This document shows, in pieces, positions 38,080 through 42,544 of a stretch of 64,000 bases of DNA. This DNA comes from Coleofasciculus sp. FACHB-T130 (GTDB lineage Bacteria > Cyanobacteriota > Cyanobacteriia > Cyanobacteriales > FACHB-T130), in NCBI RefSeq assembly GCF_014695375.1, contig NZ_JACJOG010000037.1, positions 124,001 through 188,000 of the forward strand, in the 5' to 3' direction. Under the pieces are notes generated by a model. That model was not told the origin of the DNA. It did not search any database and was given only the letters and a program-made list of their open reading frames with translations. The position numbers were made by a program, and so were the translations under genes. Positions within the stretch are counted from its first letter, which is position 1; every line of letters starts with the position of its first letter.

Positions 38080-38169
38080 CCGTTAAATTTGAGATTTTTT
38101 AAAATTTATTCTGTTTGAATAGTAGCAGCAGCAGCGTAATCTGCTATTATCTAAAAAGTGTCTGAATTT

Positions 38170-38242
<73 letters not shown>

Positions 38243-38250
38243 TTAAAAAT

Positions 38251-38296
38251 TGTATAGTGACTAATTATCTGTCGTTGGTGACAGATTAATGTCGTT
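38251..38296 (+). mobile_element. Type V-K CAST / Tn7-like transposon left-end-like sequence
   Basis: The sequence starts TGTATAGTGAC and contains two consecutive repeats of the TnsB-site type: TGACTAATTATCTGTCGTT (38258-38276) and TGACAGATTAATGTCGTT (38279-38296). From memory it matches the published left end of the Scytonema hofmannii CAST element at most positions over about 46 bases. The first repeats are present, but later ones are missing or degraded. Its location, 8 bp after a tRNA gene, is where such elements insert. No tnsB, tnsC, tniQ or cas12k gene is present in the window, so this is a solo or truncated end. Confidence 0.7.
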
Positions 38297-38572
38297 GAGC
38301 CAAATTGAGCATCATCCAGATTCGTTTGGAGAAGCGCAGGGATGCGAGAATCTCGGAACCACAATAACACATTATGGAATCGAGCGATTGGGGTCGCCTG
38401 TTGTGCTGTCTTGTAGTGATCGCATTTACAAGCATCTACAACAGAATTTGACAAGCTTTGGGCAAAAGAGGAGTTTGGATGAGGATTTATCAGACACCTG
38501 AGAGCCTATTCGGAGAGGTTCACGAAAATCGGTTCTGAAACCTAGATATAGTTTGGATTTTAAGAGGTAAGT
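38297..38572. other. Stretch between the transposon-end-like sequence and the AIPR gene
   Basis: No recognised gene is present. A 70-codon frame (38289-38501) begins inside the end-like sequence but resembles no known protein. The 3' part, with AAGAGG at 38560-38565, contains the ribosome-binding site of the AIPR gene. Confidence 0.4.
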
Positions 38573-40297
38573 ATGGCTCAAGGAGATAAATTTCTTTTAG
38601 ACAAAGTTTTGGAGTCGCAGCGAATCCAGATTGCAAAAAATCTCTCTGATAGCGACTTTTTTGAGAACTTCGTTGCAAACGAAGTTCTCAAAAACTATAA
38701 CTTGTCATATGAAGAGATTGAGGAAGGAATAATAGGTGGTGGCAGTGATGGCGGTATAGATGGAATATATCTGTTTGTTGACGATGAATTAGTAGGTCCA
38801 GATTTTGATGCTAAAAAGGCTAAAAACAATGCAATTATTGAATTGGTTGCAATCCAAGCAAAAACAAAATCAGGTTTTTCAGAAGATGCAATCAATAAAT
38901 TCACTGCATCCATGCGCGACTTATTGGACATAGACAAGCACGTAAAGGATTTACGCACAGTCTATAATAACGATTTATTGGGATTTATCGAAACATACCG
39001 AAATATTGTTCATGAAGTAGCTATCAAATTTCCAGTACTGAAATTCCCTTTTCTCTATGCGACAAAAGGCGATCGTCAACAAGTCCATCCAAACGTTAAG
39101 CGCTTGACTAATGTACTCGAAGAAACAATCAAACAATTTTTTTCGGATGCACAGGTTTCCTTTGAATTCTTAGGTGCTAGAGATTTGTTAGACATAGCAC
39201 AACAGCAAGCAATTCAAACATTAACTATAAAAACAGCTCAATACCTATTTGAGCCAGATGGCGATAGTGTTGCCTGTTTTGTTAAGCTGAAAGACTATTT
39301 TAGTTTTATAACAGATGATAGAGGTTTCAGAAGAACACACATATTCGATGAAAATGTTCGTGAGTATGAAGGCGAAAACCAAGTCAATATGGCTATCGAA
39401 AAGACTCTTGCGAAAGGAGATAGAAGTATAAACTTTTGGTGGTTGAATAATGGAATAACTGTTGTTGCTAGTAAGGCTACTGCTAGAGGAAGAAGCCTTG
39501 TTGTTATTGAAAATCCAAAAGTCGTTAATGGATTACAAACTTCACAGGAAATATTTAAACATTTTTCTAAAAAGCCCTCAGATGCTGATGATGATAGATT
39601 GATTCTAGTTAGGATTATTGTGACAGATTTGGAACCTGTCAAGCGCGAAATCCTAAATGCTACAAATAATCAAACTAGATTAGTCAAACACTTCCTCCAA
39701 ATTATTGACGATCCTGTACATAAAGATATTGAGAAGTATCTTAGCTATCAAAATTTATGGTACGAGAGACAGAAGAATTATTACAAAAATGACGGGAAGC
39801 CTAAAGATAGAATTATCACCATACAGTATTTAGCTCAAGCAGTCGCAGCTATCCTGTTGCAAGAACCAAATAACTCTCGTGGAAGACCTGCAAATCTTAT
39901 ACAAGACGAAGAAAAACGCAATCGAATTTTTAACGCGAAGTATCGTTTTGAGTTTTATCTTAATTGCATTCTCTTGATGAAAAAAGTTGATAGCTTCTTG
40001 CAAAAGAGTGTACCTGATAGTATTAAGAATGAAAAGAGCAATATTCGATTTCACATAGCAACATTTGTAGCTGCTATGAAGTTGAATATGAGAAAGCCTA
40101 GTGCGGATAAAATAGCCTCAGAATTACAAGTAGATAGTATTGAAACGAAGCTTTTGTTAGATTATGCCACTGATGTATTTAATCTATTTGAAAACCAAAA
40201 AGCTGCGTCAGGGATAGATGGTAACAAGTTATCTCGACGAAAAGAATTTGATGATGCTTTATTGAATCATATTAATATGAAGCTACCCATCTCCTAG
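38573..40297 (+). CDS. AIPR-family protein with N-terminal PD-(D/E)xK nuclease-like region
   Basis: This 574 aa protein matches the abortive-infection phage-resistance (AIPR) family. The N-terminal region has a restriction-endonuclease-like pattern: GGGSDGGIDGIYLFV (Asp63), then ELVAIQAKTKSGF (Gln95-x-Lys97). The AIPR core includes INFWWLNNGITVVASKA (about 285-300), VVNGLQTSQEIF and NATNNQTRLVKHF. AIPR proteins are tied to phage defence. The gene looks more AT-rich than its flanks, consistent with acquisition. It sits 275 bp inside a transposon-end-like sequence at tRNA-Val and is the clearest defence-type gene in the window. No partner gene was recognised. Confidence 0.88.
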   Translation: MAQGDKFLLDKVLESQRIQIAKNLSDSDFFENFVANEVLKNYNLSYEEIEEGIIGGGSDGGIDGIYLFVDDELVGPDFDAKKAKNNAIIELVAIQAKTKSGFSEDAINKFTASMRDLLDIDKHVKDLRTVYNNDLLGFIETYRNIVHEVAIKFPVLKFPFLYATKGDRQQVHPNVKRLTNVLEETIKQFFSDAQVSFEFLGARDLLDIAQQQAIQTLTIKTAQYLFEPDGDSVACFVKLKDYFSFITDDRGFRRTHIFDENVREYEGENQVNMAIEKTLAKGDRSINFWWLNNGITVVASKATARGRSLVVIENPKVVNGLQTSQEIFKHFSKKPSDADDDRLILVRIIVTDLEPVKREILNATNNQTRLVKHFLQIIDDPVHKDIEKYLSYQNLWYERQKNYYKNDGKPKDRIITIQYLAQAVAAILLQEPNNSRGRPANLIQDEEKRNRIFNAKYRFEFYLNCILLMKKVDSFLQKSVPDSIKNEKSNIRFHIATFVAAMKLNMRKPSADKIASELQVDSIETKLLLDYATDVFNLFENQKAASGIDGNKLSRRKEFDDALLNHINMKLPIS

Positions 40298-40597
40298 AGG
40301 GATTAACACTCTAGTTTTATATAGTCTGTTCAATGTCATCTAAAGTGGGGTGAGTTGGTTCTGGACGCTTTTTAAAGAGAGGAACGTCTCAATCTCCTGC
40401 TGTAACTGCTGGATGAGATCGCCTCTAACAGGATGAGAGAGCATGATCGCTAATCTATCCTGCTTGTGAGGAAATAGTGCGATCGCCGATCTTGCAGTGC
40501 GCTCGCATTTTGCCTGATGAGTGCGATCGCGCCTGAGTAAGATAACCTCCCCAACCAGAAGATACAATAAAATCTCCGATCGCTGGAGGTGAACTTG
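40298..40597. other. Intergenic stretch rich in HIP1 octamers
   Basis: This interval contains several GCGATCGC-type sites and the first copy of the 28-bp repeat (40503-40530). A 75-codon minus-strand frame here overlaps the repeats and has no recognisable features. GGAGGT at 40585-40590 is the ribosome-binding site of the next gene. Confidence 0.45.
40503..40530 (+). repeat. 28-bp direct repeat, copy 1
   Basis: The sequence runs TCGCATTTTGCCTGATGAGT followed by GCGATCGC and is identical to the copy at 41301-41328. The two copies flank the Uma2 gene. Confidence 0.8.
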
Positions 40598-41176
40598 ATG
40601 CCCCCACTACTGAACAAAACAACCGACCAACGCATTATCCATCAGGGAACCTGGGAACAGTTCAAATTCATCCAGAAAGGCTTTAATGGTTCTCCTGGGG
40701 TGCGGCTGTTTTACTATGACGAGACGATCGAGATTCTTATGCCGGGACGCGAACATGAAATTTTTGCCAGTATCATTGGTTACTTAGTGACAACCTTTCT
40801 GGCAGAAAGGGGCATTTTCTTTCAGCCAACTCGATCAATGACTCAGGAAAAAGAAGGCGTTGTCTCGGCTCAAGCGGACGAGTCTTACTGCATTGAGAGC
40901 GTGAAATCGATTCCAGATTTGTCGATTGAAGTTGTCTTTACCAGTGGAGGCACCAGCAAGTTAGAACGTTATAAAGCTTTGGGCGTTCCAGAAGTTTGGT
41001 TTTGGGAAGATGGATTGCTGAAGCTTTATCATCTTCAAAACGGCAGCTATGAATCCATTGAGCGCAGCCAGCTACCCGGACTCAGCGAACTCGATCCTGA
41101 ATTGCTCAGACGCTGCATTTTGATGGCAGAAACTGACGCTGGAGAAGCGATTAGAGCATTCCGCCGAGAGATATAG
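40598..41176 (+). CDS. Uma2-family putative endonuclease (DUF820)
   Basis: This 192 aa protein is of the PD-(D/E)xK-fold Uma2 type, greatly expanded in cyanobacteria with unknown biological role. The signature is visible in EVVFTSGGTSKLERYKALGV (about 111-130), followed by PEVWFWEDGLLKLYHL, and in IPDLSIEVVF containing the catalytic Asp/Glu. I chose ATG 40598, with GGAGGT at 40585-40590; GTG 40589 would overlap the ribosome-binding site. It is flanked on both sides by copies of a 28-bp repeat, and could have moved as a unit. Confidence 0.88.
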   Translation: MPPLLNKTTDQRIIHQGTWEQFKFIQKGFNGSPGVRLFYYDETIEILMPGREHEIFASIIGYLVTTFLAERGIFFQPTRSMTQEKEGVVSAQADESYCIESVKSIPDLSIEVVFTSGGTSKLERYKALGVPEVWFWEDGLLKLYHLQNGSYESIERSQLPGLSELDPELLRRCILMAETDAGEAIRAFRREI

Positions 41177-41602
41177 CTTTAAGTAGATTATGCAGATTGT
41201 TGTATCGCCATCGTGGTGCATTTCTTCTTGAGAGTTGCATCCACCCAACACCAGCTTACAAAAACAATGCGATCGCGTTTTGCATGAAGTAAGGGTCCGA
41301 TCGCATTTTGCCTGATGAGTGCGATCGCATTTAACCCAGCACGGGAACGGCAGAATTCATCGGTTGAGGGCGAGTAGAGCTAATTTTAGAGACTGCTGAA
41401 GATTGCGATCGCAATCTGGCAGCGCGATTAATTTACAATAATTTACTCAGCGGGTGCCGATAAAAGGACACGCTTGGCGCAACCTGCACAGAGAACCAAC
41501 GCCCGAACAGCAGGCATTCTTGCGATCGAGTTGATCCCTATTCCTTCTACAATTGAACAATTCAGAATGTCCAGCAGGACTTGCTTTTGCGCGAGAGGGA
41601 AA
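41177..41602. other. Intergenic stretch with HIP1 sites and the second 28-bp repeat
   Basis: Apart from the repeat copy at 41301-41328 and several GCGATCGC sites, nothing is recognised. The kinase frame stays open back to 41474, but that part does not resemble the family. GAGAGGGAAA precedes the chosen start at 41603. Confidence 0.45.
41301..41328 (+). repeat. 28-bp direct repeat, copy 2
   Basis: Identical to the copy at 40503-40530. Together they enclose the Uma2 gene. Confidence 0.8.
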
Positions 41603-42544
41603 ATGAGCCATCGTCCGATTATTCTAGGCATTGTTGGTGACAGTGCCGCTGGGAAAACAACAATAACACGAGGAATTGCTCAGATATTAGGTGAAGACAA
41701 TGTCACCATTATCTGTACCGACGATTATCACAAGTACGACCGCATTCAACGTGCAGAGAAGGGAATTTCAGCACTGCATCCCGACTGCAACTACTTGGAT
41801 ATCATGGAGCAACACCTGTCCCTGCTTCAAAACGGACAGCCCATCCTGAAGCCGATTTACAACCACGACACCGGGATGTTCGATCCGCCTGAGTATATCA
41901 AGCCGAGCAAGTTTGTGATTGTTGAAGGGCTTCTCGGTTATTCAACCATGAAAACCCGTGACTATCACGATGTAAAAGTTTATCTCGCACCGCCTGAAGC
42001 TCTACGCGCTGAGTGGAAGATCAAGCGAGATACGATGAAACGGGGCTATACCGAAGAACAGGTTCGCGAACAATTGAGAAAGCGCGAACCAGACTCAGAG
42101 GAATTTATCCGTCCCCAGCGCCAATGGGCAGATATCGTGGTGAGTTTCTACCCGCCTACAGACGCGCCAGAGGAGAGCAGTTCGCATCTGAATGTGCAAT
42201 TGGTACTCAGACCGACAATTCCACATCCCAGCTTGACCGAGATTTTGCACCCAAGCCGTCCTAATTACAAACCGGCAATTCGCCTGGAACTTGAGCGGGA
42301 TATGGGCAAGCCGGTTGATGTCCTAGAGATTGACGGTCAAGCAACCAGCGAACAAGTCAAAGATTTAGAGCGGATGTTGTGTAACGACATTCCCGACTTA
42401 CTGCCTTTCTGTAGCTTGGACGGCACCCCCAATCTGGGCGCTCTCGTTGGTACAACTGGGGAAACGCTCCAAAGTTACCCGCTGGCACTAACTCAGCTAC
42501 TGGTTGCCTATCATATGCTCAAAGCTGCCACTATCCACCAGTAG
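41603..42544 (+). CDS. Phosphoribulokinase-family kinase (paralogue type)
   Basis: This 313 aa P-loop kinase is related to the Calvin-cycle phosphoribulokinase that makes ribulose 1,5-bisphosphate. The P-loop is GDSAAGKTT (about 10-18), followed by IICTDDYHKYDR and the substrate motif PIYNHDTGMFDPPEYI. It differs from canonical cyanobacterial PRK, where the P-loop reads GDSGCGKST: the regulatory P-loop cysteine is Ala here, while the second Cys (IICTDDYH) remains. It is probably a second PRK-like enzyme not under the usual thioredoxin/CP12 redox lock, possibly with another substrate (inference). Start ATG 41603, with GAGAGGGA upstream. Confidence 0.85.
   Translation: MSHRPIILGIVGDSAAGKTTITRGIAQILGEDNVTIICTDDYHKYDRIQRAEKGISALHPDCNYLDIMEQHLSLLQNGQPILKPIYNHDTGMFDPPEYIKPSKFVIVEGLLGYSTMKTRDYHDVKVYLAPPEALRAEWKIKRDTMKRGYTEEQVREQLRKREPDSEEFIRPQRQWADIVVSFYPPTDAPEESSSHLNVQLVLRPTIPHPSLTEILHPSRPNYKPAIRLELERDMGKPVDVLEIDGQATSEQVKDLERMLCNDIPDLLPFCSLDGTPNLGALVGTTGETLQSYPLALTQLLVAYHMLKAATIHQ

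Follow-up and report, generated by a model that had tools for sequence, protein, structure and literature searches.

Probable relic of a type V-K CAST downstream of a tRNA-Val gene in Coleofasciculus sp. FACHB-T130

The 46 bp at positions 38251-38296 of the 64,000-nt stretch of DNA analysed here (the window) are the left end (LE) of a type V-K CAST, an RNA-guided, CRISPR-associated transposon, and the observation that first drew attention to them is real. As judged from the sequence, the locus is very probably the relic of a V-K CAST at tRNA-Val, of which the LE and a scrap of cvkR are left and the machinery has been lost. The locus is ordinary in mechanism and, being a remnant, it does not qualify as a working CAST. 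Type V-K CASTs are known mainly through copies that carry cas12k, and a short LE model detects them after gene loss. The interest lies in the abundance of CAST fossils at the tRNA genes of related genomes and in the gene turnover behind them; LE relics can also serve to date insertions and to reveal TnsB types that have been lost, and they open target immunity from leftover ends to testing in native hosts. A literature search by title found no paper on solo or relic V-K ends. The features of the locus are as follows:

38169-38243, + strand: tRNA-Val(TAC), the attachment gene (ARAGORN)
38188-38190, + strand: GTA PAM, 60 nt before the LE (sequence)
38191-38207, + strand: 17-nt anchor protospacer GAGCGCCTGCCTTACAA, identical to the anchor-spacer target in five named records and in genome G030
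38246-38250, + strand: AAAAT, candidate left copy of a 5-bp target duplication (sequence before the LE)
38251-38296, + strand: V-K CAST left end with TnsB-type sites at 38258-38276 and 38279-38296 (position matrix and LE model)
38382-38498, + strand: C-terminal remnant of cvkR, a MerR-type Cas12k repressor (homology via relatives)
38573-40297, + strand: AbiU-like defence gene (AIPR domain) in cargo position (Pfam AIPR 8e-38, PADLOC AbiU 1.5e-169)
40589-41176, + strand: Uma2-like gene, also in the sister species G001 (domain/defence matches and synteny)
41474-42544, + strand: phosphoribulokinase-family (PRK) gene, the conserved right flank bounding the remnant (domain match and synteny)

The left end and its target site

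tRNA-Val(tac) ends at 38243 according to ARAGORN, 7 nt before the LE. The LE starts with TGTATAGTGAC at 38251, its first bases being TGTATA followed by the two TnsB-type sites, in agreement with the original prediction of an end at 38251 after tRNA-Val with two TnsB-type repeats. The claim that this is a V-K CAST left end was borne out by a position matrix built from 18 of 20 cas12k-linked LEs of this genome and its relatives (the window and G001 ends and that of ShCAST not being among them), with which the LE scores 55.2 bits, the second-best place on either strand of the window 0.0 bits, and none of 100 random 64-kb sequences (first-order Markov model) more than 12.3 bits. A separate LE model, R1, was made from 14 ends and contains both the window and the G001 end.

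A study of V-K CASTs (PMC9938897) describes an LE downstream of a tRNA that is directed toward it, a 17-nt anchor and a PAM-to-LE distance of 46-82 nt, and mentions degenerated cas12k genes. The window shares with elements of the ShCAST/AcCAST/AnCAST kind the LE past the tRNA, the GTN PAM, the 17-nt protospacer in the tRNA, a PAM-to-LE distance within that range (60 nt), TnsB-type repeats and a piece of cvkR reading off the LE (PMC9938897). Attachment gene, PAM and protospacer lie at the expected distance: the GTA predicted about 61 bp upstream is at 38188-38190, 60 nt from the LE, and GAGCGCCTGCCTTACAA follows it directly inside tRNA-Val(TAC). The corresponding GTA precedes the LE by 59 to 65 nt at nine of ten measured tRNA-Val(TAC) loci, with a single protospacer mismatch in G025; at the tenth, in G039, the LE is 45 nt beyond the tRNA and the PAM falls outside the scanned range.

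The view of tRNA-Val(TAC) as a CAST attachment site is supported by GTDB genome contigs that match the pattern of an anchor spacer plus a truncated repeat. In all five such named records with an exact 17-nt anchor spacer, the tRNA-Val protospacer and an LE-like end (by eye) lie upstream of the anchor, with about 60 nt from protospacer to end, and four of the five have a cas12k match in the fetched stretch. Nodosilinea sp. BSH.14 has the same tRNA-Val(TAC) protospacer, LE position and GTGAC-type end as the window, and Aphanothece sp. CMT-3BRIN-NPC111, Leptolyngbya sp. FACHB-321 and the filamentous cyanobacterium CCT1 have the same protospacer and LE position, but these four, unlike the window, all carry the anchor spacer as well as a match to cas12k. 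At the same tRNA-Val, G030 has a cas12k-bearing CAST with the anchor spacer. A Shackletoniella antarctica MAG (L172, QBMN01000003.1) keeps tRNA-Val, LE and the exact anchor spacer; no cas12k match is present in the 4.1 kb after the anchor, and the next gene looks by eye like hisC.

Missing parts of the element

The original prediction had also stated that no transposase, TniQ or Cas12k gene lies nearby, and indeed no credible tns or cas12k remnant was found in the window (best tblastn E = 0.33). The element was rightly called truncated: unlike a type V-K CAST, the window has no detectable truncated repeat with anchor spacer, CRISPR array, tracrRNA, cas12k, tnsB, tnsC, tniQ or right end. No CRISPR repeat was seen within 600 bp of the LE with a single motif, which misses variants such as the array on contig C56. 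The matching right end with an AAAAT duplication proposed downstream did not materialise; mismatch scans of the window for the end and for ACA + AAAAT found no right end and no second AAAAT accompanying one, and LE model R1 with filters off gave a 9.7-bit antisense echo of the same LE site and at most 6.1 bits (E >= 1) in the rest of the window. Since the second end is missing, RNA-guided transposition is not expected and the element should be immobile.

A genome-wide search proposed with the prediction had a mixed outcome: it returned two complete V-K CASTs with cas12k on another contig, and no anchor spacer to tRNA-Val was found in the genome outside the 2-mismatch place C46:61076. The protospacer has no second exact copy in the genome, and its two 2-mismatch places are tRNA-Ala(TGC) and C46:61076.

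The cvkR remnant behind the left end

In V-K CASTs, cvkR lies beside cas12k, on its far side, and reads away from the LE. By sequence comparison, 38382-38498 is a homologue of cvkR C-terminal remnants, and it too reads away from the LE, matching the CAST order and strand. The predicted solo CAST end is therefore a left end but not a solo one, the remnant behind it having the predicted orientation. The window piece is 88% identical in nucleotides over 85 bp, and 70% in residues, to the corresponding piece in G005. The G005 peptide, used as a query in this genome, found the window piece (2e-8) and a MerR-type gene of the resident CAST-B (1e-5); that gene has a Pfam MerR_1 match, and the G005 and G018 pieces resemble its C-terminus (about 40-45% of residues, E about 1e-6). 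When an HMM of ten full CvkR proteins was searched against 5077 six-frame ORFs, pieces from G002 (1e-7), G025:C68 (3e-7), G005 (4e-7), G018 (2e-5), Crinalium (5e-4) and G059 (0.005) ranked at the top, the first match below the cvkR pieces being at 0.13. The window piece alone is not among the matches at E <= 1 and is recognised, as a C-terminal remnant only, through its relatives.

Such relatives follow the LE in G001, G002, G005 and G018 and, in degenerate form (by eye), in G004; further ones occur in G025:C68 and on the Crinalium plasmid, and the cvkR pieces in G059 and G001:C64 are not beside tRNA-Val. In Crinalium epipsammum PCC 9333 plasmid pCRI9333.02 (NC_019734.1:3503-3715), a two-site LE is followed immediately by a cvkR C-terminal piece, the same combination as in the window; unlike the window LE, it is plasmid-borne and no tRNA was found beside it. 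There is no cas12k match on that contig and no tns gene among the annotations listed, and the cvkR piece is annotated as a hypothetical protein. G002 and G005 also keep 92 bp that are 82% identical (3e-19) to the inner border, on the tracrRNA side, of two CRISPR arrays, that of CAST-B and that of a CAST on the G051 chromosome. By eye, the tail of the cvkR piece is alike in this genome and G005, and in G001 and G002; overall the window piece matches that of G005 at 90/116 and that of G001 at 86/117 positions. This pattern hints at recombination or separate insertions.

Two other ideas were dropped: that 38382-38498 is native flank or a separate repeat, since it is a cvkR remnant, and that the cvkR pieces share a common deletion junction, since a longer part of the gene is left in G025:C68 than on the Crinalium plasmid. 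In G025:C25 (locus L139, 3456-3560), a full cvkR gene was noticed to have another C-terminal cvkR-like piece right behind it.

Flanking genes and the locus in related genomes

G001, G004 and G005 share the gene order mazG-DUF2227-tRNA-Val ... PRK-radC with the window, which places the end of the remnant before 41474. The interval from the cvkR piece to this flank holds the AbiU-like and Uma2-like genes in the window, genes for 236-aa, 138-aa and pentapeptide-repeat proteins plus Uma2 in G001, and, in G005, genes for a NACHT protein and for one of 154 aa; the only PADLOC matches among the G001 and G005 genes are Uma2 and, weakly, the NACHT protein. The AbiU-like gene may have arrived with the CAST. 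Its homologues (E <= 1e-20) were found in four of 60 genomes including this one, and the other three lie in genomes without a cas12k match. Two small repeats were also seen: a 34-nt direct repeat, 94% identical, flanks the Uma2-like gene (40497-40530 and 41295-41328), and a perfect 17-bp inverted repeat with a 3-nt loop (38658-38694) lies near the start of the AbiU-like gene.

The sister species G001, which belongs to the same genus, carries this LE at the identical base, the two loci being 94% identical over 825 bp. LE-like sequence also stands at tRNA-Val in G002, G004 and G005, which belong to other genera of the family, and is absent there in G003. The possibility had been raised that the same sequence in relatives would mark a conserved, non-mobile feature; the sequence is indeed present in relatives, but some lack it and G030 has a CAST in its place. 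The LE rather behaves as an inherited, decaying insertion when these loci are compared. Against G002 the identities are 43/46 in the LE, 65/72 in the tRNA and 59/89 in the upstream spacer, which would favour upkeep or a fresh arrival; against G001 they are 42/46 in the LE and 101/101 in the upstream spacer, which would favour decay. At tRNA-Val a series of stages can be laid out, from a CAST with cas12k (G030 and four of the five named records), through LE and anchor only (L172) and LE with array-flanking DNA and a cvkR remnant (G002 and G005), to LE with a cvkR remnant (this genome, G001 and G018).

Other CASTs and relics in the same genome

Downstream of tRNA-Ala(CGC), contig C50 (107388-162100) carries a tandem pair of complete V-K CASTs, and a family search placed both cas12k genes of the genome on this contig:

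CAST-A: cas12k at C50:108779-110707, tnsB at 136646-138529, target duplication ATTGA
CAST-B: cas12k at C50:140046-141896, tnsB at 160150-161811, target duplication GCAAG

The insertion point of CAST-A lies within the left end of CAST-B, ten bases in. Like the presumed parent of the window relic they are V-K elements at a tRNA, with anchor spacers, cas12k and tnsBC-tniQ, but they differ from the window in being complete and in tandem, in their attachment gene and in their end motifs (TTCGC and TTGAC, versus GTGAC at the window LE). Both anchor spacers match tRNA-Ala(CGC), that of CAST-B with one mismatch. TnsB, TnsC and TniQ of CAST-A have Mu-transpos_C/rve, TniB and TniQ matches, with rve and TniQ just under the Pfam cut-offs. 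A search of viral contigs for relatives of the resident TnsB proteins found none.

LE relics in this genome stand at tRNA-Val(TAC), tRNA-Ala(TGC) and tRNA-Gly(CCC), and altogether it has at least six CAST insertions at four tRNA genes. The relic at tRNA-Ala(TGC) (C46:285324-285369) is of the TTAAC motif type and begins 6 nt after the tRNA. At tRNA-Gly(CCC) (C56:94145-94896) are two tandem LEs that enclose an anchor spacer and a V-K type array of five repeats, with no cas12k nearby; the anchor spacer matches tRNA-Gly(CCC) at 16/17 positions and the repeat is 36/37 identical to that of CAST-B, so that the guides of this array might serve CAST-B in trans.

Origin of the relic and alternative explanations

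The claim of a decayed CAST at tRNA-Val thus holds up: the LE, the PAM, protospacer and spacing, and the cvkR remnant are in place, and the core genes were not found. From known V-K biology, a V-K CAST would have inserted through Cas12k with a 17-nt anchor crRNA matching tRNA-Val(TAC) next to the GTA PAM, and TnsB, TnsC and TniQ would have placed the LE 60 nt downstream, just beyond an intact tRNA. Later deletions would have taken away, next to the LE, the anchor repeat, CRISPR array, tracrRNA, cas12k and the greater part of cvkR, and, towards the other end of the element, tniQ, tnsC and tnsB together with the right end; these steps are inferred. What remains is the 46-bp LE with its two TnsB-type sites, the cvkR scrap and a defence gene in the cargo place. 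The LE would persist because ordinary deletions, which can consume the element, spare the tRNA beside it. The genomes compared did not yield a parent element for this particular insertion.

The LE is short, AT-rich and was first spotted by eye, as a chance resemblance might be; the probability of chance is vanishingly small given 55.2 bits against at most 12.3 in random sequences, the identical placement in G001 and the many tRNAs with comparable ends. It is very improbable that the end belongs to a Tn7-like transposon that never carried CRISPR parts: such elements could have related TnsB-type repeats, but the GTA PAM spacing, the exact 17-nt anchor target and the cvkR remnant all point to V-K. 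The closeness of AbiU to the LE and the two complete CASTs elsewhere in the genome would fit a non-autonomous mini-CAST, made up of the LE, AbiU as its cargo and a right end that escaped recognition, and mobilised in trans by the transposase of another CAST. We give this equally little credence, as nothing resembling a right end was seen from the LE up to the conserved flank at 41474, and the resident end motifs are TTCGC and TTGAC rather than GTGAC.

Two further readings concern the history of a V-K end rather than its nature. CASTs may have arrived at tRNA-Val repeatedly, in which case there would be no single inherited insertion and the LE might be younger than the cvkR scrap. The LE is closer to that of G002 than the upstream spacer is (43/46 and 59/89), the G005 end is of mixed motif type, and the cvkR piece is slightly closer to that of G005 than to that of G001, but G001 has the same LE at the same base within 825 bp of 94% identity, and we regard this history as rather unlikely. 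Improbable, and clearly more so, is that LEs, alone or with the cvkR scrap, are kept at tRNA genes after loss of the CRISPR-transposase core as cis elements that would shield the tRNA from further CASTs of the same TnsB type and provide a fixed border for the swapping of defence genes between lineages, the genes at this border being AbiU here, the pentapeptide-repeat set in G001 and the NACHT protein in G005. In favour of such upkeep, the LE is as conserved between genera as the tRNA itself; against it are four changes in the LE versus none in 101 upstream positions between the sister species, and the two LEs stacked at tRNA-Gly. The decayed V-K CAST remains our preferred explanation.

Left ends in 60 genomes

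LE model matches at E <= 0.01 occur in 34 of the 60 genomes (among the matches listed), and cas12k above the family cut-off in 18 of 60. At E <= 1e-6 at least 74 LE matches are listed and 73 were classified, G000:C56:94742 being left out as it lies beside another match of the same LE; 31 cas12k places were typed, those left out being mostly weak scraps and TnpB-like matches. Among the matches listed, 48 of the 73 lie at most 50 nt 3' of a tRNA that points at them and 25 have no tRNA within 50 nt; the latter may include right ends.

A cas12k match lies within 12 kb downstream in 14 of the 48 tRNA-adjacent LEs among the matches listed, and is partial or broken in five of these (G044, G019, G001:C5, G039:C75 and G017:2197980). 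The other 34 have no such match within 12 kb, a number that includes four loci at contig ends too short to judge (G025:C56, G001:C72, G009:C72 and G028:C260); in G002:C79 the contig ends 743 bp inside the LE, yet the cvkR piece is visible next to it. Because 34 of 48 tRNA-adjacent LEs among the matches listed are without cas12k, counts based on that gene are probably too low, both for the frequency and for the sites of homing. These 34 ends are spread, among the matches listed, over fifteen tRNA species, most often Val(TAC) (n = 8).
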